A DNA stretch of 41,950 nt, from positions 1-41,950 of IMG/VR virus record IMGVR_UViG_3300033141_003239; one strand, 5' to 3'. Of the stretch, positions 3,505 through 35,860 are shown one piece after another (the first letter of the stretch is position 1; each line of letters opens with the position of its first letter). Under the pieces are notes generated by a model that was not told where the DNA came from, ran no database searches, and saw only the letters and a list, made by a program, of their open reading frames with translations. The stretch is from a virus. The position numbers were made by a program, and so were the translations under genes.

Positions 3505-3680
3505 AAAAACAAAAAAAAGAATTAAAACTAACTAGTCAAGAGTTACAACTGCTCATCAATGTTCTTTATCAAAATCGGTGGAATGGACAAGAATGGCAGA
3601 AGACAATTATGCCTTTGATAAATAAGATGAGTAAGATGATAGACGGCTTGACTAATAAAGAAAAATTTGGTAAAAAATAA
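3501..3680 (+). CDS. Hypothetical 59-residue basic protein
   Basis: The start codon overlaps the upstream stop (ATGA) and the upstream gene ends in GGAGTTGGAG, which can serve as ribosome site. The protein is lysine-rich at both ends with a central ELQLLINVLYQNRWNGQEWQKTIMPLINKM helix-rich part. Its 3' end carries the -35 and -10 of the downstream small RNA gene. No function recognised. Confidence 0.65.
   Translation: MKKQKKELKLTSQELQLLINVLYQNRWNGQEWQKTIMPLINKMSKMIDGLTNKEKFGKK
3648..3676 (+). promoter_or_regulatory. Promoter of small RNA copy 1
   Basis: TTGACT (3648-3653), a 17-nt spacer and TAAAAA (3671-3676). The arrangement aligns base for base with the better promoter of copy 2 (TTGACT, 17 nt, TATAAA at 34330-34358). 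It lies inside the end of the preceding gene. The -10 is weak by itself; conservation of spacing between copies is the main support. Confidence 0.6.
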
Positions 3681-3682
3681 TT

Positions 3683-3783
3683 ACAATTGAATAAATAGAC
3701 CCTACTTTAAGAAATCTTAAAGGCTAGGAGCTTTTCCTAGAGAACAAAGTAATCTTTGCTAGGAAAAGAACCTAGCTTTTTTT
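3683..3783 (+). ncRNA. Two-hairpin structured small RNA, copy 1
   Basis: After an AT-rich 5' end, hairpin 1 is CTTTAAG (3705-3711) / CTTAAAG (3716-3722) with an AAAT loop. Hairpin 2 is compound: GCTAGG (3723-3728) pairs with CCTAGC (3771-3776), CTTTTCCTAG (3731-3740) with CTAGGAAAAG (3759-3768), and CAAAG (3745-3749) with CTTTG (3754-3758), followed by seven T. Copy 2 at 34365-34465 keeps the same fold with paired changes (AAG/CTT to GGG/CCC; CAAAG/CTTTG to CGAAG/CTTCG). The 3' end is an intrinsic terminator. It may be an independent sRNA, a leader/attenuator, or both. The family is not recognised. Confidence 0.8.
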
Positions 3784-3789
3784 GTTGAA

Positions 3790-4029
3790 ATGGCTCAAAA
3801 ATCAGACCACGATTTACTAATTGAAATCAATACGCATGTTAAATACATCCGACGGACTCTTTGTGAACATAACAAAGCTATAAAGCGAGCTACTAAGGAG
3901 AGACAGGATTTAAGAGATTGGCAGGAAAAGATGGACACGAGGATAGGAGTTTTTGTGGGATTGGCAAGTTTTATCGGGGGAGCAATAGTTTTCATAGTAA
4001 ACAAAGCGTGGGATTGGTTCGATAAATGA
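3790..4029 (+). CDS. Holin-like / XhlA-type membrane protein
   Basis: This 79-residue protein has a charged helical N-terminus (DHDLLIEINTHVKYIRRTL) and one C-terminal transmembrane segment (IGVFVGLASFIGGAIVFIV, about residues 52-70). This is the layout of phage XhlA-like or holin-accessory proteins that work with an endolysin at the inner membrane. It overlaps the endolysin gene by ATGA. There is no Shine-Dalgarno: the ATG lies only 6 nt after the U-tract of the small RNA terminator, so translation would need readthrough and an unusual start. Confidence 0.7.
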   Translation: MAQKSDHDLLIEINTHVKYIRRTLCEHNKAIKRATKERQDLRDWQEKMDTRIGVFVGLASFIGGAIVFIVNKAWDWFDK

Positions 4030-5120
4030 AAATCAGATATCCCTTTAAAGGAAAAAGCACAACTTACAAAATAACGCAAAAATTTGGAGAAAACCCGCAC
4101 ATTTACAAAAGATTTGGATTAAGAGGGCATTCTGGTCTTGATTTTTCCACTCCGCTGGGCACACCGATTGTTGCTTGCGATGATGGTATTTGTCGGGAAA
4201 ATCGTTTTGACAAGAATGGCTATGGTTGGTATGTCAAGCTCATTCATAGCTGGGGCGAGTCTTTATATGCTCACTTTCAGGAAAAATCTTTTTTAAGAGT
4301 TAACTCTAAAGTCAAAAAAGGCGAGGTGATTGGCTATGCGGATTCCACAGGTTTCAGCACTGGTCATCATCTTCATTTTGCCATTAGAGTTAATCCTTAT
4401 AACAGAAACGATGGATGGCTGGGTTACACAGACCCTCTTCCCTACCTGAAAGGAGGAGCAATGTCTCCAAGTGGAGATACCGTAAGTAAAGAAAGTTATG
4501 ACGCCTGTATGGCGGATAGAGAAAAGTTTTGGAAAAAATCCGATGAACTGGAAAAAGAACTGGAAAGAGTTAGAGATGAATTTAAAAAACAAAAGGAGGA
4601 TTATGAAAGAGAAATTCGCTCTTTGCGGACTCGGAACATCGAGCAACAAAAACAAATTGAAGAGATTGCTGAAAAGCTTGGGACTGGTAAGGAGCTTGGT
4701 AAAATTTTGGCGGCGATTCAAAGAGGCAATGATGCTGTGGATGTGGTTGAACGAGCGAGACGGGAGACTGAGCGAGTGAAAAAGGAGTTGGAAAACTACA
4801 AAAACGAGGTAAAAGCTCAAGTAAAAGCAATCTGCGAGATGTATGATATACCCTTGACGGATTTTAAAGGGCTTAGAGAGGCGCTAATGCAATTTCAGCC
4901 TGTTTTTAAAGAGGAAAATAGACAAAAAAAGGGGGTGAAGCTAGGTATGAACGAAAAATTGAATAAAGTTTTAAAGGTTTTGGTGTGGGTGGGTATTCCT
5001 TATGCAGTTTTGAAGGTCGTGGAAGTGTTAAGTGGAGTTGAAGGATTTGCCGAATACTCACCGCTTCTAAATGTAATTGCTTACATCGCAAAGCAATTTA
5101 TTAAAGAGGAAGAAAAATGA
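4026..5120 (+). CDS. M23-family endopeptidase endolysin with C-terminal membrane region
   Basis: This 364-residue protein begins with a LytM/M23 metallopeptidase domain (residues 1-145). The zinc ligands are visible as H35-x3-D39 (GHSGLDF) and H115-x-H117 (HHLHF), with H83 in YAHF. Such enzymes cut peptidoglycan cross-links. Residues 155-275 are a long charged coiled coil. Residues 308-364 hold one or two hydrophobic segments that look like a separate small holin, with its own internal ribosome site at 4931-4938. It follows a holin-like gene and precedes another membrane protein, forming a lysis cassette. Confidence 0.87.
   Translation: MKIRYPFKGKSTTYKITQKFGENPHIYKRFGLRGHSGLDFSTPLGTPIVACDDGICRENRFDKNGYGWYVKLIHSWGESLYAHFQEKSFLRVNSKVKKGEVIGYADSTGFSTGHHLHFAIRVNPYNRNDGWLGYTDPLPYLKGGAMSPSGDTVSKESYDACMADREKFWKKSDELEKELERVRDEFKKQKEDYEREIRSLRTRNIEQQKQIEEIAEKLGTGKELGKILAAIQRGNDAVDVVERARRETERVKKELENYKNEVKAQVKAICEMYDIPLTDFKGLREALMQFQPVFKEENRQKKGVKLGMNEKLNKVLKVLVWVGIPYAVLKVVEVLSGVEGFAEYSPLLNVIAYIAKQFIKEEEK
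4947..5120 (+). CDS. Possible internally initiated holin-like protein
   Basis: In frame within the endolysin gene, codon 308 is an ATG preceded by GGGGGTGA at a spacing of about 8 nt, as strong as any start in the window. The product would be 57 residues, NEKLNKVLKVLVWVGIPYAVLK at the front, a second hydrophobic part near FAEYSPLLNVIAYIAKQF, and a charged tail, typical of a small holin. It may be made as well as the full-length enzyme, or the gene may be a fusion of endolysin and holin genes that kept the old start. Confidence 0.45.
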   Translation: MNEKLNKVLKVLVWVGIPYAVLKVVEVLSGVEGFAEYSPLLNVIAYIAKQFIKEEEK

Positions 5121-5418: not shown

Positions 5419-5630
5419 AGGAAAGACTTTACGGTAAACCCTGTTTATACTTGAATAGATTCTGCACGGTAGTTGACGCCATAGAAAGGGCGAGAAGTCT
5501 GCAGGATATTCAAATCCTTAGAGAATACACTTGCAAGCCTTGTCTTAGGCATGAAAGAGAAATTGATCCAACTAGCGATCTGGAAGATTTCATCAAAAAA
5601 GAAGGGATAAAACTAGATGGGTGGGAATGA
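5415..5630 (+). CDS. Small Cys-containing hypothetical protein
   Basis: This 71-residue protein has an ATGA start overlap and four cysteines (GKPCLYLNRFC and YTCKPCLRHE), which could bind a metal. The C-terminus is acidic. It overlaps the start of the phosphoesterase gene by 14 nt, so the two are probably translated together. Function not recognised. Confidence 0.65.
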   Translation: MKERLYGKPCLYLNRFCTVVDAIERARSLQDIQILREYTCKPCLRHEREIDPTSDLEDFIKKEGIKLDGWE

Positions 5631-7641
5631 AAGATTAAATCCAATTGCGCCAGTCGATGTTTGGCATGACTTAGAAGAGCAATTAGAACTTCTTCATAGT
5701 GATACTCCTCTTAAAGAAATCTGGACTCACTTTACACCTAACTTTGTAGACACTCAGGTTGCAAAATTTGATATGGAGGAAGCATTGAGGGCAATGAGTG
5801 AGAGATGCAGGATTTATCAGGAGACAAAGATCACCCAACCCTCAGCGGTGATAACCTTAGACACGGAACTACCCGTGTCTATTTTTTTTAGTGGTGATTG
5901 GCACTTTGGCTCGATTTATACCGATCATGAAAGGCTTTTGGAAGATTTACATAAAATTATGGAAACGCCAAATGCCTACCTCTTCTTGATGGCTAACTTA
6001 ATAGACAATGGTATTCCTGCCAAATATCCTGATGCGATGTTAAGAAACTCCCTGCCTCCCCAAGAACAGGTAATTGCGGTAAGAAAAATAATTCAGAAGC
6101 TGGATGAGAAAGGAAAAATTCTTGGAGCAGTAGTCTCACCTTGCCATGAGGGGTGGTGTATAGATGCAGAAAAAAGCGAAATTCTTACACGAAACGGCTG
6201 GAAAAAAGAAGAAGAAATTCTAATAGGCAGCGAAATTGTTACTTTTAATATTTTTACGGAGAAGTTTGAATATGCAAGGGTATTGGATAAATATAGCGGA
6301 TATTATAATGGTGAAATGTTTCATTTTAAAAACGATAATGTAGATTTACTATGCACTCCAAACCATAAAATTCTTTACATTAATAGTAGTAAGAAATATT
6401 TTCACGAGGCAAAACTAATTAAAAATATAAGTAATATCAAATTCTGGCAAACTACAAAATTTGCAAATCAGCAGGACGGGAGTAATAGAGGCGCTTATGA
6501 TTATAGTCTAATGTTAGTGGCCTGGATTATTACGGAGGGGACATATAGCAAAAAATTTAATAGAATCACTATTTATCAATCAACTAAAAATCTTCCTATG
6601 TTAGAACGTATTAGAAAAATCTTGCGGAAGAATCATATTAAATTTAAGGAAAGTATCCATCCATCTGGATTTGGCGGAGCTGATGTAGTTGGTTTTAGTT
6701 TCAAACCATCTGTTGATTTTATGAAACGATGGTTTCCTACTGAAGCCATACATCGTATACCACGAAGAATATTTGATTTTAGAAAAAAGAAAAGAATCCT
6801 ATTTCTACGAGAATTAATGTTGGGAGATGGAACAAGTCGTGAATTTACCTATAATACTCGTTCCTGGGAACTAGCAAGTGATGTTCAAGAATTAGCAATT
6901 AAATCTGGAATCAAAGCAACAATAGGAAAAAAAGGAGAAAAGGATTGGGCTATATATATGAAAGAACCAAATGGAAGAAATGGGGGAAATTTTGTATGGA
7001 TTGGTAATGGAGAGATGAGGAAAATTGATTTTAAGGGGAAAATATGGTGTCCTCATACTAAAAACGGTACAATCGTGGTAAGAAGAAATGGCAAAGTATG
7101 TATTACGGGAAATACCTGGACTGTCGCAGGACAAGATATTAATGCCATGCTTTTTGGTTATGAGGGCAGGAAATTTCCAGTTTTGGAGAACGGAGGGATT
7201 ACTCATTTGTTTGTCGGCAGTCAGGAATACCAGATTGCCTCTTACCATCAAATCGGACCATTTGAAAGCAACTTTAATCCTACTCATGGGATAAGACAAA
7301 TGAATAGATTAAGAGCAAGGAATGTAGATATAATATGTGCCGCCCACAAACATTGGGGGGCAACCCTACAAGTCTATGAAGGTGTGGCAGAAAGTATGCG
7401 TCCCAATGTTTATATTAGAAGCGGAACTTATAAACTAGATGACCAATGGGCACGGGAACGCTGGGGAATTCTTGGCGAGCCCTCAGGACAATCAGTTATG
7501 CTTTGGCCTAATGAAAGACGGATGCAGGAGTTCTTAGATATTGATACAGCCATCGAAGCTCACGAAGCAATCTATCTAGTAAGGTGGCTTGAAACTGTAG
7601 AGATGTTGGGGAAAATAAGGGAATTGGCAGAAGCCTCCTAA
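5617..7641 (+). CDS. Metallophosphoesterase interrupted by an intein
   Basis: The extein (residues 1-180 and 500-674, about 355 residues after splicing) is a calcineurin-like phosphoesterase. Motifs: GDWHFGS (D94, H96), MANLIDNG in place of GDxxDNG, SPCHEGW in place of GNHE, and AAHKHWG in place of GHxH. Key metal ligands are thus partly replaced, so activity may be altered. The intein (residues 181-499) sits right after SPCHEGW. Phage enzymes of this class act as DNA end nucleases or phosphatases; the substrate is unknown. It is the last gene of the lysis-side operon and is followed by a promoter-rich gap. Confidence 0.82.
   Translation: MGGNERLNPIAPVDVWHDLEEQLELLHSDTPLKEIWTHFTPNFVDTQVAKFDMEEALRAMSERCRIYQETKITQPSAVITLDTELPVSIFFSGDWHFGSIYTDHERLLEDLHKIMETPNAYLFLMANLIDNGIPAKYPDAMLRNSLPPQEQVIAVRKIIQKLDEKGKILGAVVSPCHEGWCIDAEKSEILTRNGWKKEEEILIGSEIVTFNIFTEKFEYARVLDKYSGYYNGEMFHFKNDNVDLLCTPNHKILYINSSKKYFHEAKLIKNISNIKFWQTTKFANQQDGSNRGAYDYSLMLVAWIITEGTYSKKFNRITIYQSTKNLPMLERIRKILRKNHIKFKESIHPSGFGGADVVGFSFKPSVDFMKRWFPTEAIHRIPRRIFDFRKKKRILFLRELMLGDGTSREFTYNTRSWELASDVQELAIKSGIKATIGKKGEKDWAIYMKEPNGRNGGNFVWIGNGEMRKIDFKGKIWCPHTKNGTIVVRRNGKVCITGNTWTVAGQDINAMLFGYEGRKFPVLENGGITHLFVGSQEYQIASYHQIGPFESNFNPTHGIRQMNRLRARNVDIICAAHKHWGATLQVYEGVAESMRPNVYIRSGTYKLDDQWARERWGILGEPSGQSVMLWPNERRMQEFLDIDTAIEAHEAIYLVRWLETVEMLGKIRELAEAS
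6157..7113 (+). mobile_element. Intein with LAGLIDADG endonuclease domain
   Basis: The 319-residue intein begins with Cys (CIDAEKSEILTRNGW, block A), has block B with TPNH (LLCTPNHKI), and ends ...GKVCITGN followed by Thr as first extein residue. Two dodecapeptide motifs mark a homing endonuclease: VAWIITEGTY (about residue 301 of the host protein) and ELMLGDGTS (about 399). The usual penultimate His is replaced by Gly (GN instead of HN), a known variation in some inteins. The insertion point is inside the catalytic motif region of the host enzyme, the kind of conserved site inteins prefer. Confidence 0.9.
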
Positions 7642-13166: not shown

Positions 13167-13423
13167 AAAAGAAAACGGTTGAAGAGAGGATAGAGGAGAT
13201 TCTTTGTGGAATGCCAGATGATGTATATGGCAGTGGAAATAGGTATATCAAACCTGCCGTTCAAAAGACTAAGAAGAAAATACTAATTGCTTTTTCCAAC
13301 CTCCTTCAGGAGATTGTGGGGGAGGATATTCCAAATCCGTATGACCAACTTAAAATTGAGGGAATTAACCAAGCTAAACAAGAAATCCGAGAAAAAGCAA
13401 GAAAGTTAGGAATTAAAATTTGA
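13163..13423 (+). CDS. Hypothetical helical protein; its 3' end is duplicated downstream
   Basis: The 86-residue protein starts in an ATGA overlap after GGAGG. It is helical, with PDDVYGSGNRYIKPAVQKTKKKI and NQAKQEIREKARKLGIKI at the end. The last 17 codons plus the following ribosome site are repeated exactly at 14400-14460, where they form a remnant of a second copy. Function unknown. Confidence 0.65.
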   Translation: MKKKTVEERIEEILCGMPDDVYGSGNRYIKPAVQKTKKKILIAFSNLLQEIVGEDIPNPYDQLKIEGINQAKQEIREKARKLGIKI

Positions 13424-13433
13424 AAGGAGGTGA
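13373..13433 (+). repeat. 61-bp exact direct repeat, copy 1
   Basis: From GCTAAACAAGAAATCC to AAAGGAGGTGA, identical over 61 bp to 14400-14460. It covers a gene 3' end plus the next ribosome site. Indicates recent duplication or recombination in this small-gene region. Confidence 0.95.
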
Positions 13434-13438
13434 GAAAA

Positions 13439-14363: not shown

Positions 14364-14450
14364 TTCTCTCTACCAGATAGAGTAAAAGGCTATAACTACG
14401 CTAAACAAGAAATCCGAGAAAAAGCAAGAAAGTTAGGAATTAAAATTTGA
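14364..14450 (+). pseudogene. 3' remnant of a paralogue of the 13163 gene
   Basis: Reads LPDRVKGYNYAKQEIREKARKLGIKI and stop, matching the end of the 13163 gene (last 17 codons identical in DNA) but with no start codon, in the same frame as the preceding gene after its stop. A decayed duplicate. Confidence 0.65.
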
Positions 14451-14460
14451 AAGGAGGTGA
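14400..14460 (+). repeat. 61-bp exact direct repeat, copy 2
   Basis: Identical to 13373-13433. Here it brings an AAAGGAGGTGA ribosome site to the 14468 gene. Confidence 0.95.
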
Positions 14461-14467
14461 AAAATAG

Positions 14468-15165: not shown

Positions 15166-15194
15166 TTGACAAAAAGAAGAAAAAAAGGTATAGT
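15166..15194 (+). promoter_or_regulatory. Strong promoter of the terminase unit
   Basis: Perfect TTGACA (15166-15171), 17-nt spacer, TATAGT (15189-15194). The predicted start near 15201 is only about 17 nt from the terminator stem at 15218. Confidence 0.85.
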
Positions 15195-15217
15195 AAATTA
15201 AATAAGATAGGGTCGTG

Positions 15218-15241
15218 GCTGGCTTCAAAGCCAGCTTTTTT
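15218..15241 (+). terminator. Promoter-proximal intrinsic terminator
   Basis: GCTGGCT (15218-15224) / AGCCAGC (15229-15235), TCAA loop, then TTTTTTA. It would stop transcripts from the 15166 promoter after about 40 nt, before the terminase start at 15265. Passage would need an antitermination mechanism or partial readthrough. Confidence 0.85.
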
Positions 15242-15264
15242 ATTGAAAATTTAAAGTGAGATGA

Positions 15265-15687
15265 ATGAATGAAACTATAAAAGAAAAAAATAAAAATAAA
15301 ACAATAAAGAGAAATTATAAGTTAAGTGTAGTAGATAAGAAGAAGATATTGTATCTATATGCTACTGGACAATATTCTTTAAGGGAACTAGGAAGAAGGT
15401 TTGGAGTCCAAAACTCTTCGATTTGGAGCATAATCCACAGTCATCCACAGGCGTTCGAGCGTTACAAAAAGGAAGCTCAGAAAGATTTACAGCGTGAATT
15501 CATAAAATTTGCTAAAGAAGCCTTAAAAGTTGCTGAAAAAAAGAAGGATAAAATGTCAGCTTATCAGGCTTTAACCGCGGCAGCAATTGCCTATGATAAG
15601 GCTTGGCCTAAAAGCGGTGTAGTGATTGACCGTAGAAACCAAAAAATAAAAATAGTCTACAGCCGCTGGAAGGAAAAACAGACGTGA
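15265..15687 (+). CDS. terS: Terminase small subunit
   Basis: This 140-residue protein lies directly upstream of the large-subunit region. Residues 20-60 form an HTH (VDKKKILYLYATGQYSLRELGRRFGVQNSSIWSIIHSHP), as expected for DNA recognition at the packaging site. Residues 65-115 are the oligomerisation-type helices (FERYKKEAQKDLQREFIKFAKEALKVAEKK). The C-terminus is basic. Its ribosome site is weak (AAAGTGAGATGA). It is under the 15166 promoter with the terminator in between. It would form the ring that presents phage DNA to the large subunit. Confidence 0.78.
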   Translation: MNETIKEKNKNKTIKRNYKLSVVDKKKILYLYATGQYSLRELGRRFGVQNSSIWSIIHSHPQAFERYKKEAQKDLQREFIKFAKEALKVAEKKKDKMSAYQALTAAAIAYDKAWPKSGVVIDRRNQKIKIVYSRWKEKQT

Positions 15688-16230: not shown

Positions 16231-18384
16231 ATGGTAAAAGAAAAGATTGAAATCAAATATGCTCCTCTTCCTTGGCAGAGGGAGATTCATGAAGACAATC
16301 ATCGGTTTAGAGTTGTCTGTGCAGGGAGAAGAAGTGGAAAAAGTGTTCTCTCCAGACAAGAAGTGATAAGAAAAGCGATTTTTTTAGATGTGGAAAAATG
16401 GAAAGAGAAGTGGAAAGGGATTTCAAAAGTGCCAAAGTTTTGGATTGTTTCGCCGACTTTTAGACAAGGAAAAGAAATCCATTGGACAGAACTTAAACAA
16501 GATATTCCTTGGCAGTTGGTAGAAAGCAAAAATGAACAAGAGTTGAAGATTAGATTGAAGAATGGAACTGAGATTGCTATTAAAGGAGCAGATAATGAGG
16601 AGAATTTAAGAGGATCAGGATTGGTAGGAGTAATTTTGGATGAGGCAGCTTACCTGAAACCCAATATTTGGACTGAAATTATCTCTCCAATGTTGGCAGA
16701 GACAAAAGGATGGGCATTGTTTATCTCAACTCCCTGTGGTTATAACTGGTTTGAGAAGCTGTTTAGGCGGGGAGATCCGAAAAGTAAAGATTATCATAAG
16801 GATTGGAAAAGCTGGCATTATAGTAGTTATATCAATCCTGACGCAAGAGAAGAAGCAGATCGGGCAAAAGAAACAGAATCTGAAGAGTTTTATCGTCAAG
16901 AATGGCTGGCAGAGTTCACTACTACTACAGGAAGAATTTATAAGAAGTTTTCAAGAGATATTAATGTAATTAAACCCTTCCAGATCGACCAAAGCTTTAA
17001 GGTGATTGCGGGTTATGATTTTCCTGGCGGAGGAAAAGCCGCCGCCGCTTATCTTTTGATTGCAATTAACCCAGACGGAGTTTGGTATATCATTGATGAA
17101 CTTTATGCGGTGGAAAAAACTTCTCAATGGATTTGTGGACAGATTCTGGCGATGACTGAGCCTTATGAATCTTTAAGACCAGGGGAGCCTGTCCCCAAGT
17201 ATTGTGATCCCCATGTAAGACAACTGGTTGAGGATTATGCTGCTTGGAATGTCCATTTGATTTCTGCCAGAAAAGAAACAAAGACTCAGATGCGAAGTTG
17301 GATCAGGCATGGAATTGATTTAGTGAGAAGATTATTGGTTAAGGATGCTAGAACAGGAAAACCAAAACTGTTTGTTTTTAATACTTGTGAGAACACAATC
17401 AGAGAATTTGAGACTTACTCTTGGAAAAAAAATCCTGATCCTACCCTAAATGAGCCAGGAGTGCCAGCAGATGCCAATAATCATTGTTTTACTGGTGAGA
17501 CTTTGATTTCTACAATCAAAGGAAATAAAAAAATTGCCGATATTAAAGAAGGGGAGCTTATTTTGACTAGTAAGGGATATAAAAAAGTTTTGAAAAAATG
17601 GAATAACGGAATTAAAAGAATAAATAAATACTTGTTACACTTAGATACAGAAAAAGTTATAATTAAAGCTACACCAGATCATAAAATTAAAACAACAAGA
17701 GGATGGAAACAAATATCAAAACTAAAATCGGGAGACAAAATTTACTTATTCAAACTTTTCAAGGAAAAGAATACCGACTTTATTCTGGAGAAAAATATTT
17801 CTCACGAGGGACAAAAAGACTTCATGTTGTTGTTTGGGAATACTTCAATGGAAAAGTTCCATCAGATAAACAAGTTCATCATAAAGACGGCAATACCTGG
17901 AACAATAATATTCAAAATCTTGAACTTATTGAAAAAAATATTCATCGAAAAATTCATGGACAAAGAAGATTTAAAGAAAACAGAAAATGGGCAAAAGAAT
18001 TTCAAAAAAAAGGAGTCGAAGCAGCTAAAAAATGGCATTCTTCAAAAGAAGGTCGCAAGTGGCATAGCCAACATGCCAAAGAGCAATGGAAAACTAGGAA
18101 GCCTGTGGAAAAAATTTGTGTGGTTTGTGGCAAGAAATATAAAACCTTCTTCCCCAGCAGAAGTAAATACTGCCATCCGAATTGTAGAGCTAAAGCGCTT
18201 AGAATGCGTAGGAAGCTGGAAAGAAAAAGTTTATGACCTCACAATAGATAAAACTCCCGAATATTTTGCTAATGGTATTTTAGTTCATAATTGCATGGAT
18301 GCTCTACGCTATGCGAGGGTGAGTTATGAACATCGGGAGGATATATGGATTCCAGAGAAAGAGAAAAACTGGGCACTAAAATAG
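16231..18384 (+). CDS. terL: Terminase large subunit interrupted by an intein
   Basis: The ATPase domain shows Walker A CAGRRSGKS (30-38), Walker B VILDEAA (D137, E138) and the STPCG coupling motif (166-170). The nuclease domain has GYDFPGGG (D263), IIDELY (about 287-292) and MDALRYA (D690). The intein occupies residues 419-687 and splits the usual H-A/C-MDALRYA motif between His and Cys; Cys688 is the first downstream extein residue. The spliced protein would be about 448 residues, normal for the family. It drives DNA packaging into the head and cuts the concatemer. The 3' end overlaps the next gene by 40 nt. Confidence 0.95.
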   Translation: MVKEKIEIKYAPLPWQREIHEDNHRFRVVCAGRRSGKSVLSRQEVIRKAIFLDVEKWKEKWKGISKVPKFWIVSPTFRQGKEIHWTELKQDIPWQLVESKNEQELKIRLKNGTEIAIKGADNEENLRGSGLVGVILDEAAYLKPNIWTEIISPMLAETKGWALFISTPCGYNWFEKLFRRGDPKSKDYHKDWKSWHYSSYINPDAREEADRAKETESEEFYRQEWLAEFTTTTGRIYKKFSRDINVIKPFQIDQSFKVIAGYDFPGGGKAAAAYLLIAINPDGVWYIIDELYAVEKTSQWICGQILAMTEPYESLRPGEPVPKYCDPHVRQLVEDYAAWNVHLISARKETKTQMRSWIRHGIDLVRRLLVKDARTGKPKLFVFNTCENTIREFETYSWKKNPDPTLNEPGVPADANNHCFTGETLISTIKGNKKIADIKEGELILTSKGYKKVLKKWNNGIKRINKYLLHLDTEKVIIKATPDHKIKTTRGWKQISKLKSGDKIYLFKLFKEKNTDFILEKNISHEGQKDFMLLFGNTSMEKFHQINKFIIKTAIPGTIIFKILNLLKKIFIEKFMDKEDLKKTENGQKNFKKKESKQLKNGILQKKVASGIANMPKSNGKLGSLWKKFVWFVARNIKPSSPAEVNTAIRIVELKRLECVGSWKEKVYDLTIDKTPEYFANGILVHNCMDALRYARVSYEHREDIWIPEKEKNWALK
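17485..18291 (+). mobile_element. Terminase intein whose central part is overprinted by an HNH gene
   Basis: A 269-residue intein. Block A is CFTGETLIST with Cys1; block B has ATPDHKIKT; the front Hint half ends near GDKIYLF. The C-terminal half has VYDLTIDKTPEYFANGILVHN with canonical His-Asn, followed by Cys. All splicing residues are present. In the intein frame, residues from about 17770 to 18165 look like nonsense and hold no endonuclease motif; the same DNA in another frame encodes a complete HNH endonuclease. So splicing and homing seem to be coded in different frames of one segment. Confidence 0.92.
17703..18236 (+). CDS. HNH homing endonuclease nested out of frame in the intein
   Basis: This 177-residue product is read one base off the terL/intein frame and lies wholly within the intein. 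It has a GTKRLHVVVWEYFNGKVP lead-in, the HNH core VHHKDGNTWNNNIQNLELI (H59, H60, N64, N67-N69), a basic linker and a C-terminal zinc ribbon C139-x2-C142 ... C157-x3-C161. All parts of phage HNH endonucleases are intact. ATG 17703 has only AGAGG just before it; a later start is possible. Its last 24 codons overlap the conserved intein block F region, so both frames encode conserved residues there. Confidence 0.85.
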   Translation: METNIKTKIGRQNLLIQTFQGKEYRLYSGEKYFSRGTKRLHVVVWEYFNGKVPSDKQVHHKDGNTWNNNIQNLELIEKNIHRKIHGQRRFKENRKWAKEFQKKGVEAAKKWHSSKEGRKWHSQHAKEQWKTRKPVEKICVVCGKKYKTFFPSRSKYCHPNCRAKALRMRRKLERKSL

Positions 18385-19754: not shown

Positions 19755-19765
19755 ATGATTTTCCT

Positions 19766-19850
19766 GGCACGGCTGGGCGGGGCAAGGCCAGGCGCGGCAA
19801 GGCGCGGCGTGGCCAGGCGCGGCAAGGCGTGGCTTGGCTTGGCAAGGCAA
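19766..19850. repeat. GGCNN pentamer array 2 (17 units)
   Basis: Seventeen uninterrupted GGCNN units (variable pairs AC, TG, GG, AA, CA, GC, GT, TT), same orientation as array 1, 12 nt after the stop of the 19242 gene and 4 nt before the -35 of the next promoter. Confidence 0.95.
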
Positions 19851-19854
19851 ACCC

Positions 19855-19884
19855 TTGACAATATTGTGCGAAGTGTGTTATAAG
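19855..19884 (+). promoter_or_regulatory. Promoter of the portal/capsid unit
   Basis: Perfect TTGACA (19855-19860), 17-18-nt spacer, TTATAA or TATAAG (19878-19884). The predicted start near 19891 is at the first arm of the attenuator that follows. Confidence 0.82.
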
Positions 19885-19894
19885 TAAAACAAAG

Positions 19895-19945
19895 CGGTTA
19901 TAAAGACAAATTTTAACCGTCCACAAGTGGTGGGCGGTTTTTTTA
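19895..19945 (+). terminator. Intrinsic terminator with competing antiterminator hairpin
   Basis: Terminator: AACCGTCCAC (19915-19924) / GTGGGCGGTT (19930-19939), then T7. Competing hairpin: CGGTTA (19895-19900) pairs with TAACCG (19914-19919), which takes the 5' arm of the terminator. The two are mutually exclusive, the layout of an attenuator controlling portal and capsid gene expression. Confidence 0.8.
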
Positions 19946-19982
19946 TTGCTTTAAAAATTTTTATACCAAAGGAGGCTTCATT

Positions 19983-24155: not shown

Positions 24156-25768
24156 ATGGCATACGGTCTTATGACCTGAATTTTGGGTCATAACCTGGCT
24201 ATATGCGGGAACACTCTAAAGCACCAACTACTGATTAGGTAAGAATGGAGGTGATAAGAATGAGCAATCCGCAGGAAAGACAGCACTTTTACATTGGATA
24301 CCTCTTAGGAATATTAGATGCCGATGGTTCATTCCAACTAGGGAAGGACGGCAAGGGACACTATATTCCTGAGATAACAATTGCAAACACTAATAATTCT
24401 ATTATCGAGAAGATAATAGAAGCACTAAAGTTTCTAGGACTTACAGGATATGTTTGGACGGCAAAAAGAAAAAGAAAACGGTGGAAACCAGTTCATAGAG
24501 TTGTAATAAAAGGAATAAAAAGAGTTGCCAGAACATTAGAGCTTTTAAATAATTACAATTTTGGAAAGAAAGATAGAGCTTTAGTGCTTAAAGAGTTTTG
24601 CGATTATAGATTATCAATTCCTCATAAAAAAAAGTATTTAAACATAATTTATAGAGTTAGGAATAAAGATAGAATATATGGGGAAAAGGAAGATGAGTTT
24701 AAAAGGCGATTAACCTTGTTAAATATGGCTGGTATCCGACCCAATACAAATATGAGTGCTGTATCCTCAGAGACTATACGCCAGGCTTCCAAGATGGAAG
24801 AAGATATAGTCCGAGCTTACACGAAAGTGTAAGAGCTAGGCAGAAATGACCTAGCCCCCAATAAAGGGAGTAACAAAACTGATCAGGATGCTGTTCGTAG
24901 GGAAGACTTGATTGATGTCATTGGGGATGTCTCACCAGATGACAATCCTTTAATGACAATGCTCAAGACGACCAAAGCAACTGGTACCTATCATGAATGG
25001 ACTGAGGAATATATTGCGAGACCAACCTCTGTTACCTATGCAGCGGAGGGTGCAGCCGCTACTTACAGCGACTTAACTCAACCAGTGCGCAGAGGGAATA
25101 TCACCAATATTATTACCGAAACATTCAGGGTATCAGGAACTGAGCGAGCAGTATCCATAGCTGGTATGGGAGATCCGTATAGCTACCAGCAAGCAAAAGC
25201 CTTGCGTCGTTGGAAAAACAAAGCAGAGTTTACCATTCTTCGAGGAGCAAAAGCATCAGGTTCATCTGGTGTAGCTCGTGAGATGGATGGAATAACTTCT
25301 GTTATTACCACGATTGCAACTGCTCGGAACTCTGGGACTTCTCTCTCAGAGAATGAGTTCAACGGCTTTGCTGAGGATTCTTGGAAACAAGGTGGCAACG
25401 ACAATGTCTTTGATTTGGTTTTGGTTCCTGGTGGTTTGAAGAGGAAAATTTCCTCCTTCACTGCAGGATCAACCAGATATGTTGATGCTACCGACAAGAA
25501 GCTGGTAAGACCAGTAATGGTTTATGAATCCGACTTTGGAGTTCATAGAATTATGGCACACCACGATCTGCCTGATGCTAATGGAACTTCTCAGTTGGTA
25601 GCCATTAAAGAGGATCTCTACAGAATTGCCTATCTGAGACCACCTAAAGCAGAAAAACTAGCTAAAGATGGAGACCGTGACAACGGTCAAATCGTTGGCG
25701 AGTTTACTCTTGAGTGGTTGTCAGAAAGGACTTCTGTCTTAGCAGCTGGCTATAACAAGAACGGATAA
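24156..25768 (+). CDS. Major capsid protein (DUF5309/SU10-like), split by a group I intron
   Basis: Exon 1 is 24156-24177 (ATG after AAGGAGGTGAAAAAG; MAYGLMT plus one base) and exon 2 starts at about 24867, giving 307 residues. Exon 2 reads SNKTDQDAVRREDLIDVIGDVSPDDNPLMTML then TYHEW, the front of the DUF5309 capsid family, followed by GTERAVSIAGMGDPYSYQQAKALRRWKNKAEFTILRG and GEFTLEWLSERTSVLAAGYNKNG at the end. It builds the HK97-fold head. Without splicing, exon 1 hits a stop at 24178 (TGA spanning the splice site). Confidence 0.88.
24178..24866 (+). mobile_element. Group I intron in the capsid gene
   Basis: P1: exon TTATGACCT pairs with internal guide GGGTCATAA, with a U-G pair at the 5' splice site (24177/24178). 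P4/P-Q region: ATGCGGGAACACTCTAAAGC. P7: GACTATA pairs with TATAGTC in AGATATAGTCC; P8 TTCC/GGAA between. P9: CTTACAC-GAAA-GTGTAAG with a GNRA loop; then GCTAGG/CCTAGC. Length about 689 nt. The 3' end is set at G24866 because only that keeps the capsid frame; neighbouring G residues are possible only if the 5' site also shifts. Confidence 0.9.
24260..24832 (+). CDS. LAGLIDADG homing endonuclease of the intron
   Basis: GGAGGTG before ATG 24260 sets the start (190 residues). One LAGLIDADG motif is clear: YIGYLLGILDADGSF near the front; a single motif suggests it acts as a homodimer. The rest has IANTNNSIIEKIIEALKFLG and KDRALVLKEFCDYR. It would cut intron-less capsid genes to spread the intron. 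Its 3' end runs through P8, P7 and part of P9, so the last ~25 codons share DNA with the ribozyme core. Confidence 0.9.
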   Translation: MSNPQERQHFYIGYLLGILDADGSFQLGKDGKGHYIPEITIANTNNSIIEKIIEALKFLGLTGYVWTAKRKRKRWKPVHRVVIKGIKRVARTLELLNNYNFGKKDRALVLKEFCDYRLSIPHKKKYLNIIYRVRNKDRIYGEKEDEFKRRLTLLNMAGIRPNTNMSAVSSETIRQASKMEEDIVRAYTKV

Positions 25769-25843: not shown

Positions 25844-26266
25844 ATGGGGATACTGACACGAGATTCAGTTACAGGAAAAATAAGAGATGCTGACCACTTA
25901 GCGGCGGCTACAAAGATTATTATGGCTTCAAAAGTTAAACCATGGTGGGAAGTAATCAATATGGTTGTCTCCCTTTATAAAAAACTTTATCCCGCCGAGT
26001 ATCGGCAGTTTGTCAAGATAAATCGAGAATTGATGAAGACAAGAGGAACGGCTACTGGTAGAGGAAAAAATCAAGACGAAGAACATTGGCACAAGCAGTC
26101 TGAGGTGCGTTATCTTCTTAATCTTCCACAAAAACTTATTAGAATGATCCGTTGTGTCTATCCTTTGCCTGATGAGAGAAACAAACCATATCTTAAGTTT
26201 GATCGCAAATTCTATAGAAAGTTTGCCAGGTATCATCCTGAGTTTCGTATACCAGAGAAGATATGA
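25844..26266 (+). CDS. Hypothetical protein after the capsid gene
   Basis: 140 residues from ATG 25844, with no ribosome site but a hairpin just upstream. Contains KPWWEVINMVVSLYKKLYPAEYRQFVKINRELMKTR, LLNLPQKLIRMIRCVYP, KFDRKFYRKFARYHPEFRIPEKI. From memory similar proteins follow DUF5309 capsid genes in phages; function unknown. Overlaps the glycosyltransferase gene by ATGA. Confidence 0.68.
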   Translation: MGILTRDSVTGKIRDADHLAAATKIIMASKVKPWWEVINMVVSLYKKLYPAEYRQFVKINRELMKTRGTATGRGKNQDEEHWHKQSEVRYLLNLPQKLIRMIRCVYPLPDERNKPYLKFDRKFYRKFARYHPEFRIPEKI

Positions 26267-28035
26267 AAAAACCAAAAATCGCTTTATCAATGATTGTTAA
26301 AAATGATTCGGAAGCTGGAAATTTAAGGAGATGTCTTCGTTCGATTGCTCCTTATGTAGATGGTATTTTTATTACTACAACTGCTCTTCCAAATAAAGAA
26401 ATAAAAAAGATTTGCAAGGAAGTTAATGCTCATCATAGTTTTTTCAAATGGCGAAAAGATTTCTCCGCGGCAAGAAATTTCAATATTAATCAAATTCCTA
26501 AAAAAGAATATTCATGGTTTTTCTGGTGTGATGCTGATGATTATATCTTGGGCGGAGAGAATCTGCATAATTTAGCACAAATTGGAGAAGAAAGAGGAAT
26601 TGAAGCATTTTTCTTCAACTATGTATATGCTTTGGATGAGGTTGGAATTCAACATTTTCTAAAAACAGGAAAAGTTTTACCAGATCATATTTTAATTGAG
26701 CATTTGCGGGAACGGTTGTTGAGGAATAATGGTGTATATAAATGGATTGCTCCTATTCATGAAACTTTAATTGAACAAAGACCGACAAAAAAAGTTGATG
26801 ATCCTTCAGTTCAGGTTGTCCATTTAAATTCTCCAGAAAGAATGAAAGAAGCAATTTTTAGAAATGTGGATATTCTTGAAACTCAGCTAAAATCTCAAGG
26901 AAAAAGAAGAGATCCAAGAACTGTCTATTACTTGGGCAAAGCTTATTTTGACCTACGGGGAGAGGATGAAAAATATTTAATAAAAGCTTTTGATCTTTTT
27001 AAAGAATATCTTAAAACTTCTGGTTGGAATGAAGAGAGAGCGCAGGCATGGGAATATATGGCGGAGATTTACAATATCTATAAAAAATTTGATAAAGCTG
27101 AAAAATGCCTTTTATCTGCTCTTTCAGAGACTCCAGTTTTTACTACTACTTATGTTGCTTTGGCAAGTCTTTATATGCGTCAAGGAAAATGGGATCAAGC
27201 CCTTCATTGGTTAAAACTCAGTGTCTATGTCCCTATGCCGAAAACCACTTTGGTAGTTAATCCAAGAGATATTATCACTCATTCTTATGAAGTGGCTTTT
27301 AATTGTTTTCTTCATAAAAAAGAATGGGATAAAGCTTATCAGGCAATGCAACAACTAGCAAAGTATTTTCCTAATGAACCATCTGTCCAAGAAAGACTTC
27401 AATGGATTACCAACATAGTAAAAGAAAGAGATGCTCTTAAATACTTCATTAAACTTGCTGATTATTTGCGGCAAACAGGAGAAAACGATAAACTTCTTCC
27501 GCTTTTGTCAGCTACTCCAAAAAATATTGAGAATAATCAACTGGTTAGCAATCTCAGAAATGAAGTGCTACCTCCTAAAGTCTGGAAAAAGAATGAAATT
27601 GCTATCTTTTGTGGACCTGGCTTTGAATGTTGGGATCCGACTTCTATTAAAAAAGGAATTGGAGGATCAGAGGAGGCAGTTATTTACCTTTCTCAAGCTT
27701 TAACAAAACTAGGTTGGAAAGTAACGGTTTTTGGCGATCCAATTAAAGAAGGAGTATATGATGGAGTCAAGTATTTACATTATTTTAAGTGTAATTTTTT
27801 GAAAGACAAATTTAATATTTTCATTGTTTGGCGAGCGATTGGAAATGTTGATCCAGTAAGAAGAGCAAGGGCAATTTTTGTTGATATGCATGATGTCCCT
27901 AATCCTTTGGAGTTTACTAAAGAGAGAGTTAAAAAAGTTAAAAAAATTTTTGTTAAATCTAGGTATCATCGCAATTTTTTACCAGATATTCCTGATGAAA
28001 AATTTGCGATTGTACCCAATGGAATTGTGATATGA
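26263..28035 (+). CDS. Multi-domain glycosyltransferase (GT2 + TPR + GT4 N-terminal half)
   Basis: 590 residues in three parts. Residues 1-200: GT2-type transferase (IALSMIVKNDSEAGNLRRCLRSI, DxD motif D90-A-D92-D93 in WCDADDYI). Residues about 205-420: TPR-like helical repeats (VYYLGKAYFDL, AWEYMAEIYNIYKKFDKAEKCLLSAL, VALASLYMRQGKWDQALHWLK). Residues about 445-590: N-terminal Rossmann half of a GT4 enzyme with GIGGSEEAVIYLSQALTKLGWKVTVFG, ending NGIVI. The other GT4 half is the next gene, started by ATGA overlap. It begins the glycosylation cassette inserted between capsid and neck genes. Confidence 0.85.
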   Translation: MKKPKIALSMIVKNDSEAGNLRRCLRSIAPYVDGIFITTTALPNKEIKKICKEVNAHHSFFKWRKDFSAARNFNINQIPKKEYSWFFWCDADDYILGGENLHNLAQIGEERGIEAFFFNYVYALDEVGIQHFLKTGKVLPDHILIEHLRERLLRNNGVYKWIAPIHETLIEQRPTKKVDDPSVQVVHLNSPERMKEAIFRNVDILETQLKSQGKRRDPRTVYYLGKAYFDLRGEDEKYLIKAFDLFKEYLKTSGWNEERAQAWEYMAEIYNIYKKFDKAEKCLLSALSETPVFTTTYVALASLYMRQGKWDQALHWLKLSVYVPMPKTTLVVNPRDIITHSYEVAFNCFLHKKEWDKAYQAMQQLAKYFPNEPSVQERLQWITNIVKERDALKYFIKLADYLRQTGENDKLLPLLSATPKNIENNQLVSNLRNEVLPPKVWKKNEIAIFCGPGFECWDPTSIKKGIGGSEEAVIYLSQALTKLGWKVTVFGDPIKEGVYDGVKYLHYFKCNFLKDKFNIFIVWRAIGNVDPVRRARAIFVDMHDVPNPLEFTKERVKKVKKIFVKSRYHRNFLPDIPDEKFAIVPNGIVI

Positions 28036-28622
28036 AAAGAAATCCTAAAGCCTGTTTATACACCAGTTCTTATGATAGAGGATTAGAGCATCTTTTAGAT
28101 ATTTGGCCAGCAGTTATTAAAGCTGTGCCAGATGCAAAGCTAAATATTTTTTATGGCTGGCAAACCTTTGATGCAATTCATGCCGATAATCCAGAGCGAC
28201 AAGCTTATAAAGAAAAAATGGAGAAAAAGATGAGGTATAAGGGGATTGTTCATCATGGAAGGGTTGGTCATCGAGAATTGGAGAAGTGGTTTCAACGCTG
28301 TGGAATTTATGCTTATCCGACACATTTTGAAGAGATTAGTTGTATTTCTGCGATGAAAGCTCAGGCTTTTGGAGCAATTCCTGTAGTAATCAACTATGCT
28401 GCTCTTAAAGAAACTGTGAAGTTTGGAATTAAAGTTGATGGCGATATTTATGAAAAAGAAACTAAAGAGAAATATCTAAAAAAACTTATTTGGGCTTTAA
28501 AACATCCTGAGTGGCAAGAGGAGGTGAGAGCAAAGATGATGCCTTGGGCAAAGAAGTCCTTTGCTTGGGCACTGATTGCAGAAAAATGGGACAAGATATT
28601 CCGAGAAACTATAAAGCCTTAA
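28032..28622 (+). CDS. GT4 glycosyltransferase C-terminal half
   Basis: 196 residues starting at the ATGA overlap. KACLYTSSYDRGLEHLLDIWPAVIKAVPDAKLNIFYGW is the start of the nucleotide-sugar-binding GT-B half; GRVGHRELEKWFQRCGIYAYPTHFEEISCISAMKAQAFGAIPV carries the E-x7-E-type donor site. It completes the GT4 fold begun in the upstream gene; the two chains probably associate. Whether the stop at 28033-28035 is natural or a sequence error cannot be told here. Confidence 0.83.
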   Translation: MKRNPKACLYTSSYDRGLEHLLDIWPAVIKAVPDAKLNIFYGWQTFDAIHADNPERQAYKEKMEKKMRYKGIVHHGRVGHRELEKWFQRCGIYAYPTHFEEISCISAMKAQAFGAIPVVINYAALKETVKFGIKVDGDIYEKETKEKYLKKLIWALKHPEWQEEVRAKMMPWAKKSFAWALIAEKWDKIFRETIKP

Positions 28623-33349: not shown

Positions 33350-33628
33350 ATGCCTTTAGTTAAAATTTTAGTTGACTATCCCAATATTGAAGGTTGGAAA
33401 AAAGGAGACATTGTAGACATCACTTCTCCACAAAGATTAATTGAAGAGAAAAAAGTTGAGCTTTATACGGGAGCAGTAGATGAAGAAGGAAAACCAGTTA
33501 AGGAAGTCTCCTCAGTTAAAAAAGTGAAAAAAACTGAGACTTCTAAAAAAATAGTGTGTCCTGTTTGTGGAAAAGTTTGTAAGAGTGAATTTGGATTGTT
33601 GTCTCATTCAAGAGTCCACAAAGTATAG
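33350..33628 (+). CDS. Small protein with C-terminal C2H2 zinc finger
   Basis: GAAGGAGGTGAG before ATG 33350 fixes the start (92 residues). The front VKILVDYPNIEGWKKGDIVDITSPQRLIEEKKVELY is a small beta domain, then a Lys-rich linker, and CPVCGKVCKSEFGLLSHSRVH is a classical C2H2 finger (C-x2-C-x12-H-x4-H). C2H2 fingers are uncommon in phage proteins. Function unknown. Confidence 0.72.
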   Translation: MPLVKILVDYPNIEGWKKGDIVDITSPQRLIEEKKVELYTGAVDEEGKPVKEVSSVKKVKKTETSKKIVCPVCGKVCKSEFGLLSHSRVHKV

Positions 33629-33629
33629 A

Positions 33630-34346
33630 ATGAAAAAAATTTCAGTTATCACACCGAGTATAAGAAAAGAGGGGTTAAAACTCGTTTCAAAAGCCTTAAA
33701 AAAACAAACTTTTAGGGATTTTGATTGGTGGGTGGGAGCCCCTTTTCCTCCTCTTGAGGAGATTAATTATGATTACTGGATTTTGGATGATTTTAAAGGG
33801 GGATTTTGGAGTCTTAATAGGATTTATAACAAACTAATAGAGCATTCGAGAGGAGAATTAATTGTTTCATGGCAAGATTATACTTATGCAAAACCTGATG
33901 CTTTAGAGAAATTTTGGTTTCACTATCAAAATAATCCAAGAGCAATTGTTACTGGAGTAGGGAATAAGTATAAAGATGAAAGTTGGCAGGTTAAAATCTG
34001 GCAGGATCCACGAGAGAGGAATGATCAGGGAAGTTTTTATGAGTGTTATCCCAATGATATTGAATTTAATTTTTGTGCTGTTCCTAGAGAAGCCTTCTAT
34101 CAAATCGGAGGATTTGATGAGAAAATGGATTTTCTAGGATATGGAATGGATGGAATTTCTGTAGTTGAAAGACTTGATGCTTTGGGTTGGAAATTTTACA
34201 TTGATCAAACCAACAAATCTTATTCATTAAAACATGGACGACCAAAAGGATGGGAAAAATATAATCTTCTACATGGAGGGTATATTAAGAGAAAAAAACA
34301 ATTGATTGAAAAAGGAAAGTGGCCAGTTCTTGACTATTTAAAATAA
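33630..34346 (+). CDS. GT2-family glycosyltransferase (last of cassette)
   Basis: 238 residues from ATG 33630. KISVITPSIRKEGLKLVSKALKKQTFRDFDWWVGAPF, a central ELIVSWQDYTY in place of the DxD loop, YQIGGFDEKMDFLGYGMDGISVVERLDALGWKFY (GT2 acceptor-side GFDE motif). The promoter of small RNA copy 2 is in its last codons. Confidence 0.83.
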   Translation: MKKISVITPSIRKEGLKLVSKALKKQTFRDFDWWVGAPFPPLEEINYDYWILDDFKGGFWSLNRIYNKLIEHSRGELIVSWQDYTYAKPDALEKFWFHYQNNPRAIVTGVGNKYKDESWQVKIWQDPRERNDQGSFYECYPNDIEFNFCAVPREAFYQIGGFDEKMDFLGYGMDGISVVERLDALGWKFYIDQTNKSYSLKHGRPKGWEKYNLLHGGYIKRKKQLIEKGKWPVLDYLK

Positions 34347-34358
34347 TTTTGTTATAAA
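34330..34358 (+). promoter_or_regulatory. Promoter of small RNA copy 2
   Basis: TTGACT (34330-34335), 17-nt spacer, TATAAA (34353-34358). Good match; same geometry as copy 1. Confidence 0.8.
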
Positions 34359-34364
34359 GGTATT

Positions 34365-34465
34365 AACAACTGAATAATTTGTCCCTGCTTTGGGAAATCC
34401 CAAAAGCTAGGAGCTTGTCCTAGAGACGAAGCAATCTTCGCTAGGAGAGGCACCTAGCTTTTTTT
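34365..34465 (+). ncRNA. Two-hairpin structured small RNA, copy 2
   Basis: Hairpin 1: CTTTGGG (34388-34394) / CCCAAAAG (34399-34406), AAAT loop. Hairpin 2: GCTAGG (34406-34411) / CCTAGC (34453-34458), CTTGTCCTAG (34414-34423) / CTAGGAGAGG (34441-34450), CGAAG (34427-34431) / CTTCG (34436-34440), then T7. Compared with copy 1, paired positions change together. A shared 5' part (TGAATAA ... CCCT) lies upstream of hairpin 1. It sits at the boundary between the sugar cassette and the neck genes. Confidence 0.82.
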
Positions 34466-34488
34466 GTTGGGAAGGGGGTGAAAAAAAT

Positions 34489-34905
34489 ATGGCAATAGAT
34501 TTACTAAATCTTGATGCTGAAAGTGGTAAAAATATTATCTCTGATGATTCAGGGGTAGCCCTCACTCTAGAGAATACTGGTTCTGGAGAGGTTTTAAGTT
34601 TGAGAGGAACTGGTGGATATCTTTTATCTACCTATTCTTGTCCAACAACTGCAGCCTCATTTAAGAGTGCAGCAACAGAAGCAACTCCAGTAGTAATAGA
34701 ACATGCTGTTGTTGGAAGTCCAACTGTTGCTCCTTTGAAGATTGCTGCTTCAGGAGCATCAGCACCAGCTTTCCAAATTGAGGGAGGTTGTATTGTCTCT
34801 ATTACTTCTGGTGCTTCATTCTGCGCAGCAATCAGGATTAAAAGGGGAGACCAGTATTACTGGATTCCTTTAGTAGATGAAGTAGATGGCGCAGCCGCAC
34901 CATAA
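34489..34905 (+). CDS. Virion structural / decoration-type protein
   Basis: 138 residues after GGGGGTG. Beta-rich, low in charge, rich in Ser/Thr/Gly/Ala: LTLENTGSGEVLSLRGTGGYLL, APLKIAASGASAPAFQIEGGCIVSI, IRIKRGDQYYWIPLV. The pattern fits head decoration or fibre-attached proteins. First gene after small RNA copy 2, so it would be the first controlled by that unit. Confidence 0.68.
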   Translation: MAIDLLNLDAESGKNIISDDSGVALTLENTGSGEVLSLRGTGGYLLSTYSCPTTAASFKSAATEATPVVIEHAVVGSPTVAPLKIAASGASAPAFQIEGGCIVSITSGASFCAAIRIKRGDQYYWIPLVDEVDGAAAP

Positions 34906-34910
34906 AGAAA

Positions 34911-35192
34911 ATGACCGCAGATTATAGAACAGAATCAGAAATCGTTAATTTGGCGAAGAAAAACGCCGATACCAAGACGCATCAGTATTTGTCTGACATG
35001 CGTGTAGGCTATTTTGGTTCGTCTAGACGAAGTGAAATAATCGCAAAAGTAAAAGATTGGAATAATTCAACCAAAAAAGGCCACTCTTGGCATGATGAAT
35101 GGCAGGAGTGGCTAAGCGGTCAAGGAGTGGCAGCCAGTATGAAAACTGAAGAAAGGAGAGCCGTCTTTCATAAGACGGATACTTATCCATAA
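34911..35192 (+). CDS. Hypothetical 93-residue protein
   Basis: Starts 5 nt after the previous stop, likely by coupling. Contains YRTESEIVNLAKKNADTKTHQYLSDMRVGYFG and NSTKKGHSWHDEWQEWLSGQGVAASMKTEERRAVF. Not recognised; lies among neck genes. Stop overlaps the next start. Confidence 0.62.
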   Translation: MTADYRTESEIVNLAKKNADTKTHQYLSDMRVGYFGSSRRSEIIAKVKDWNNSTKKGHSWHDEWQEWLSGQGVAASMKTEERRAVFHKTDTYP

Positions 35193-35860
35193 TGGATGTA
35201 CAAGAATTACAAAATCGAATAGCGGCAATTGTTGATCAAAGTTCCACTGCTCCCACAGCAGGGAGTTCTAGTTGGAATTTAAGATTGAAGTATTTAAATA
35301 TGGCCCAACGAGAATGGGAGGAGGCTTATGATTGGTCAACCCTTTATAAGGAATATAATACTTTAACTTCTAATTCTAGTGGGGGACCGACAATCTCAAT
35401 GCCTTCAGATTTTAGGAAATTAGCAGGTTATCCCAAGATAACTGCTGATGGTTCTAATACTGATGAATATCCAGAGATTGATCCCCAAACAAAAGAACAA
35501 TATCTCTCAACTGATGAGTATTGTTATGTTTTAGGAAATGATAAGGATGGTTATAGTTTGATTATTAATCCAGCAACTCCTGTTTCGGGAGCAAGTATTT
35601 TTATTCCTTATTGGGCAGCAGCAGCCTCTTTAGCTTCACCAGCAGATGTTTCTATGTGTCCTGATCCAAATTATTTAGTGCAACGATCAGTAGCACAACT
35701 TTGGGAGGCAAGAGGTGATCCAAGATTTCCTCAAGCCAAAAGTGAAGCGGAAAAACTTCTGCAAAGGATGGTGGAGCAAGAGAATACAAGAGGTTATGGC
35801 TATCACAATGAAGTAAAACACGCTGAAGATAAAAAGAGTTTTCGTTGGGGAAGAGATTAA
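35192..35860 (+). CDS. Head-tail adaptor protein
   Basis: 222 residues. LNMAQREWEEAYDWSTLYKEYNTLTSNSSGGPTISMPSDFRKLAGYP is typical of phage adaptor (P22 gp4-like / phi29-type neck) proteins: N-terminal helices then a beta part (EYCYVLGNDKDGYSLIINP) and C-terminal helices (LVQRSVAQLWEARGDPRFPQAKSEAEKLLQRMV). It would dock under the portal after packaging. Position before the stopper supports this. Confidence 0.75.
   Translation: MDVQELQNRIAAIVDQSSTAPTAGSSSWNLRLKYLNMAQREWEEAYDWSTLYKEYNTLTSNSSGGPTISMPSDFRKLAGYPKITADGSNTDEYPEIDPQTKEQYLSTDEYCYVLGNDKDGYSLIINPATPVSGASIFIPYWAAAASLASPADVSMCPDPNYLVQRSVAQLWEARGDPRFPQAKSEAEKLLQRMVEQENTRGYGYHNEVKHAEDKKSFRWGRD

Follow-up and report, generated by a model that had tools for sequence, protein, structure and literature searches.

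Candidate leader RNAs with their own promoter- and terminator-like signals at late-module borders of a phage with an SU10-type capsid

Why would one phage genome carry the same short promoter–RNA–terminator segment twice, and does the RNA serve the genes that follow it or act elsewhere? The initial annotation of this locus offered both readings, a phage sRNA and a cis antitermination or attenuation leader. The window analysed here, 41,950 bases with 37% G+C, comprises an entire IMG/VR virus record. It encodes a capsid protein of the SU10 type (PF17236, 1.5e-66), an SU10-type adaptor, an SU10-type portal and an M23 endolysin, as well as a glycosyltransferase cassette recognised by homology to annotated phages. 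The module genes identified all lie on the + strand, and many genes of the window have strong Shine-Dalgarno sequences.

Control of late genes by a promoter, a leader and a terminator is best known from lambdoid phages, typically with one such arrangement per genome. Here several module borders of each genome show the layout, and the clade is represented by metagenomic sequences only. If the reading given below is true, it provides a sequence-level handle on the timing of lysis versus assembly in such phages, as well as a matched set of leaders for testing protein-dependent versus RNA-only antitermination.

Several unrelated features of the genome were recorded along the way. TerL (16231-18384) and a phosphoesterase-like gene (5617-7641) each appear, as read from the sequence, to contain an intein, and the latter gene includes a LAGLIDADG_3 match. 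A free-standing homing-endonuclease-like ORF (24245-24832) lies just 5' of the capsid gene. A 72-nt direct repeat (13366-13437 and 14393-14464, 95.8% identical) spans a gene end and a strong Shine-Dalgarno sequence.

The duplicated segment and its predicted fold

Comparison of the window with itself (blastn) yielded a direct repeat, 3647-3787 and 34329-34469, with 79.6% identity over 142 nt (E=3.7e-27); the window contains no further copy. The homology begins at CTTGACT, which holds the −35 box, and ends at TTTTTTTGTTG after the U-tract; therefore the duplicated unit is exactly the promoter, the RNA and the terminator. The homologous segments described in the initial annotation are thus borne out from promoter through U-tract, and its promoters have the sequences given there: TTGACT-17-TAAAAA in copy 1 (3648..3676, + strand) and TTGACT-17-TATAAA in copy 2 (34330..34358, + strand). 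They match the promoter consensus at 9/12 and 10/12 bases, respectively, a level frequent by chance in this A+T-rich window, and are considered putatively active on the basis of sequence. The leader RNAs would extend over 3683..3783 and 34366..34465 (both + strand), with starts predicted from the promoters and 3' ends in the U-tracts.

Each copy consists, in this order, of a short A+U-rich 5' tail, a hairpin H1, four CTAGG/CCTAG segments and a T7 tract. H1 has the loop AAAT and 7 pairs in copy 1 (CTTTAAG AAAT CTTAAAG, 3705..3722, + strand) and 6 pairs in copy 2 (CTTTGGG AAAT CCCAAA, 34388..34405, + strand). The long hairpin region that follows (3723..3776 and 34406..34458, + strand) holds the segments CTAGG, CCTAG, CTAGG and CCTAG and includes the terminator stem; a small inner hairpin lies between segments 2 and 3 (CAAAG TAAT CTTTG, 3745-3758, and CGAAG CAAT CTTCG, 34427-34440, + strand). 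The U-tracts occupy 3777..3783 and 34459..34465 (+ strand). In each copy segments 1 and 3 are near-identical, as are segments 2 and 4. In the minimum-energy fold, 1:4 and 2:3 are nested as one long hairpin, and in the alternative fold 1:2 and 3:4 form consecutive hairpins; the latter pairing excludes 2:3 together with 1:4. A stem stands immediately 5' of the U-tract in both folds. Since the pairings are mutually exclusive, the element may be interpreted as an attenuator whose arms exclude one another. In this respect it resembles the attenuators of trp and ribosomal-protein leaders; unlike them, it shows no reading frame or leader peptide conserved between the two copies and no riboswitch match. 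No known RNA family from Rfam was matched in the window, and around copy 2 only chance-level matches were obtained at E<=10.

The paired stem changes noted in the initial annotation are exact in both copies: TTTAAG/CTTAAA in copy 1 became TTTGGG/CCCAAA in copy 2 (two compensatory pairs in H1), and CAAAG/CTTTG became CGAAG/CTTCG, with the loops AAAT and TAAT/CAAT alike. In total, the copies differ by 14 substitutions, with three pairs fully compensatory and one pair broken. We simulated random placement of 14 substitutions with the same transition bias and counted compensatory and broken pairs. At least three compensatory pairs with at most one broken pair were obtained with P of about 6e-4 (0.06%) for the four-hairpin fold; for the nested fold, 0.15% of the simulations reached at least three compensatory pairs without more breaks than observed. 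The substitutions at columns 36, 67, 69 and 71 of alignment A4 fall in loops of the alternative fold, and in the nested fold they correspond to one broken pair and one G-U. A column shuffle of the two-row alignment gave a much weaker result (71/500), two sequences being few. Both RNAs fold better than shuffled sequences (z −5.0 and −5.4). Together with the covarying leaders of relatives described below, the three compensatory pairs versus one broken pair support, as far as sequence comparison goes, the claim that the copies carry a selected RNA structure.

Compensation in hairpins can also arise non-selectively in DNA, by quasi-palindrome correction or template switching. Accordingly, the copies could be a repeat, mobile or quasi-palindromic, that plays no part in regulation and owes its paired changes to template switching in hairpin DNA. 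The two copies are indeed near-palindromic, and the CTAGG type is known from these two sequences only. However, the boundaries of the repeat coincide with the promoter and the U-tract, covarying equivalent leaders occupy the same borders in relatives, and no target-site duplication is seen, and we regard this explanation as hardly credible.

Position at module borders and further units in the window

Copy 1 starts within the 3'-terminal part of a 59-codon ORF (3501-3680) downstream of the tail fibre gene and is followed by a gene for a 79-aa protein (3790..4029, + strand), probably holin-like judging by its C-terminal hydrophobic stretch, and then by the M23 endolysin gene (4026-5120, + strand). 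The start of copy 2 likewise lies within the 3'-terminal part of the cassette's last glycosyltransferase gene (33567-34346), and the copy precedes the neck module, which opens with a gene at 34489..34905 (+ strand) and continues to the SU10-type adaptor (35192-35860, + strand). The location at module borders was thus described correctly, copy 1 standing before the lysis genes and copy 2 between the glycosyltransferase and the neck module. The distance from the U-tract to the start codon equals 6 nt in copy 1 (ATG of 3790) and 23–24 nt in copy 2 (34489).

As the terminators end 6–24 nt before the start codons, a further promoter would not fit in between, and the downstream genes would need read-through. 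A module reached only via read-through is in turn better explained by a leader than by a free-standing sRNA gene. We therefore consider it quite improbable that the unit is a stand-alone duplicated sRNA gene whose product acts in trans on messages of the phage or the host and which stands before modules incidentally. This explanation agrees with the complete transcription unit of about 100 nt, whose promoter and terminator were copied as a block, and with the absence of a sequence homologue elsewhere. Against it, the RNA showed no pairing with phage translation starts above that of shuffled controls, except with its own terminator, relatives have matching units at the same borders, and the downstream genes would still require read-through. 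Hence the sRNA reading gained nothing from the analysis.

The + strand of the window has six strict TTGAC promoters, four of which stand upstream of a strong intrinsic terminator lying 14–44 nt before a start codon; these four belong to the two copies and two further units. (A scan for terminators by energy, without promoter or start-codon filters, proved too permissive.) The third unit (15166..15243, + strand) consists of TTGACA-17-TATAGT, a short leader and a hairpin (15217-15236) with a U-tract, and precedes a terminase small-subunit-like (TerS-like) gene (15265-15687). The fourth (19855..19946, + strand) consists of TTGACA-18-TATAAG, a leader and a hairpin (19915-19939) with a U-tract, and precedes gene 19983 and the portal operon. 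Neither has significant sequence similarity to the two copies or to the other.

Two minor observations concern this part of the analysis. G+C-rich tandem repeats lie immediately 5' of the portal leader promoter both in the window (19755-19850) and in a relative, G030 (L200:17350-17440). Also, a perfect 9-bp hairpin followed by T8 (5858-5881, + strand) within the phosphoesterase-like ORF 5617-7641 resembles a terminator inside a gene and has no promoter upstream.

Homologue searches and leaders in related phages

A covariance model built from both window copies (R1) was run on 80 capsid relatives, on 20 neck relatives and on whole records and detected no homologue in any of them. Its matches on the reverse strand (30–38 bits) were discarded as the palindromic image of the copies; that strand has no long U-tract. 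Blastn of the copies against phages gave only chance A+T-rich matches. One search of viral_contigs with DNA patterns of the copies gave 0 hits; 88 DNA-pattern matches in the same collection were rejected as chance CTAGG repeats, and the only match in the genome collection, a GCTAGGAGCGAGG repeat in a MAG, was rejected too. In the collections searched the CTAGG-type leader therefore has no homologue outside this record. The covariance-model search proposed initially thus provided no support from sequence homologues; the supporting evidence is provided by non-homologous leaders that occupy the same borders in related phages.

Such leaders were found in G030, a true relative of the window phage retrieved by an adaptor search. 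The identity between the two equals 59% for the capsid protein, 48% for the portal, 41% for TerL, 54% for the adaptor and 51% for the next large neck protein, with neck proteins in the range of 46–54%. G030 contains three promoter–leader–terminator units (39241, 30799 and 17447). The first is located 5' of the homologue of the 34489 gene and the adaptor, that is, before the neck module. The second (TTGACT-17-TATAAT) coincides exactly with the end of the gene for the homologous glycosyltransferase, and the third, with a 21-bp hairpin, precedes the portal. Units 39241 and 30799 look distantly paralogous (z 4.6, 1/300). As a side observation, the glycosyltransferase region 26263-28622 comprises two ORFs in the window (26263-28035 and 28032-28622, with an ATGA overlap); its counterpart is unsplit in G030 and in some further relatives.

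A query made from two aligned sequences of the large neck protein retrieved 20 relatives. The neck-border leaders of two contigs (L211 and L214) are clearly homologous to G030 39241, and the three form one family. All three have AAGACGG close to the predicted start, a small hairpin, a stem containing GATATTTGA, and the U-tract; 6 pairs are changed on both sides, a result reached in 1/500 shuffles, and every slid structure is worse. The second family, G030 17447 and L211 17270, is characterized by CGGTAGAACYG followed by a 21–22 bp hairpin with 7 double-changed pairs. Thus leaders at matching borders in relatives are not homologous to the window copies, are equally built and covary strongly, and at least three sequence families of leaders occupy equivalent positions.

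A single start motif common to all units was considered and rejected: AAGACGG is clear in the three relatives, unit 19855 has part of it (AAGCGG), and neither window copy evidently contains it. No clear sequence motif links the window copies with the leaders of relatives; the link is the layout. A second covariance model (R2) was built from the three relatives only and run exhaustively on the window. Its four best matches are the four units: 3682-3787 (26.5 bits), 19879-19948 (24.9), 34373-34469 (15.0) and 15191-15245 (13.8). In G030, ranks 2 and 3 are its other two units (24.2 and 19.3). In two distant phages totalling 73.5 kb, the best control match scored 16.2 bits, and with default filters in 852 kb the best match outside the units and their antisense scored 17.7. 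As controls reach 16.2–17.7, two window units exceed the background individually, and the other two, copy 2 and the 15191 unit with scores at the control level, stand out by rank only. Any strong hairpin that has a U-tract also gains score under R2; the result indicates a shared layout and possibly old homology, and is not a proof of common descent.

The elements could also be RNase III processing hairpins, such as occur between T7 early genes, that mature a long transcript at module borders. The long imperfect hairpins (14–22 bp) at borders in the window and in relatives agree with this. Still, neither the U-tracts right after the stems nor the promoters right before them are required for processing, and we consider this explanation very improbable.

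In a further relative, L231 (G035), three related GTTATAYCAAGGGCGTT-like hairpins were observed on the − strand (353-389, 1789-1835 and 2102-2144). Each is followed by a T-rich stretch, with a start codon about 40 nt further on, and they thus form a repeated leader-like element.

Proposed mechanism and comparison with known systems

The two copies are probably cis-acting 5' leader RNAs, attenuators or antitermination sites, that gate late modules in the manner of lambda pR'-tR'; we estimate the probability of this at about 0.6. The cis reading was already among those of the initial annotation and is now supported by the location of the leaders before modules, the lack of space for a second promoter, and the matched position and architecture in relatives. 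The promoters and terminators of the units are inferred from their sequences to work. Host RNA polymerase would start at the TTGACT promoter and produce about 100 nt of RNA, folding into a short 5' hairpin and then a long imperfect hairpin. Unmodified polymerase would stop at the U-tract just before the first gene and release the short RNA. Read-through of copy 1 would turn on the lysis module and read-through of copy 2 the neck/tail module, and units 15166 and 19855 may gate the terminase and portal modules likewise. Read-through is presumably regulated and not fixed. The regulator could be a phage factor recognising the promoter or start DNA, similarly to Q, a phage factor recognising the 5' hairpin as in nut or put, or refolding of the four CTAGG/CCTAG segments.

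The main rival is that the terminators are simply leaky: a fixed fraction of polymerases would pass, setting the relative amounts of modules or insulating them from upstream transcription, with no switch and no factor. Identical anatomy would be expected in this case, and no antitermination protein was recognised. Yet leakiness by itself explains neither a short 5' hairpin kept by compensation beside the terminator nor a promoter just upstream of each unit, and we find it unlikely compared with regulated read-through.

The gating reading has its closest parallel in lambda, where Q-dependent antitermination at pR'-tR' is established and the system includes a −10-like pause element in the first transcribed bases and a Q-binding element between the −35 and −10 boxes (PMC6606751). 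The order is the same: a promoter, a short structured leader, an intrinsic terminator and then late genes, so that the terminator gates the module. As read from sequence, this layout is represented by four units in the window and three in G030. Unlike lambda, the window genome has at least four units, each before its own module and two of them paralogous. No Q was found, in searches that also missed an annotated one (see below), and a −10-like pause element is not seen consistently: TACAAT occurs near the predicted start of copy 1 and is not consistent in copy 2 or in relatives.

The initial annotation compared the copies with put of phage HK022, an RNA of about 70 nt with two stem-loops that is present in two related copies per phage, binds the zinc domain of the RNA polymerase β' subunit and acts without a protein (PMC9378689). 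The similarity consists in promoter-proximal structured RNAs of about 70–100 nt with stem-loops, in two related copies per phage. In contrast, put acts on early transcripts. Both window copies end in a terminator-like hairpin with T7, whereas the published description of put mentions no such terminator as part of the element (PMC9378689). The analysis showed no match between put and the window copies in sequence or fold. The comparison therefore stays as an analogy, and membership of the copies in put is unsupported.

Leaders of relatives can also be compared with lambda N/nut: AAGACGG is a single-stranded motif, after which a 4–5 bp hairpin with a five-base loop can be drawn (possible pentaloops AAAAA, TATAA, TAGAA and ACGAA), and then comes the terminator. 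However, AAGACGG differs from boxA, the loop in the window copies is the tetraloop AAAT, and no N-like protein was identified. RNA-only action similar to put, or a boxB-like loop in relatives, is possible.

A broader generalization is rather doubtful and is offered tentatively: phages of the clade with SU10-type capsids might have one leader RNA per late module served by a single antitermination mechanism, either protein-free as in put or dependent on a new factor, with fast turnover of leaders, retention of the layout and copying of leaders between modules.

The Q families PF06530 and PF03589 gave no match in G000 or the relatives; as they missed an annotated Q as well, this negative result carries little weight. 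That Q is encoded by MW202481 (L005:7813-8247), a Manatee Spring podovirus with a related capsid protein, where the Q gene is directly followed, in this order, by TTGACA-18-TATAAT, a terminator and an ORF; this set of Q, promoter and terminator constitutes a lambda-like late switch.
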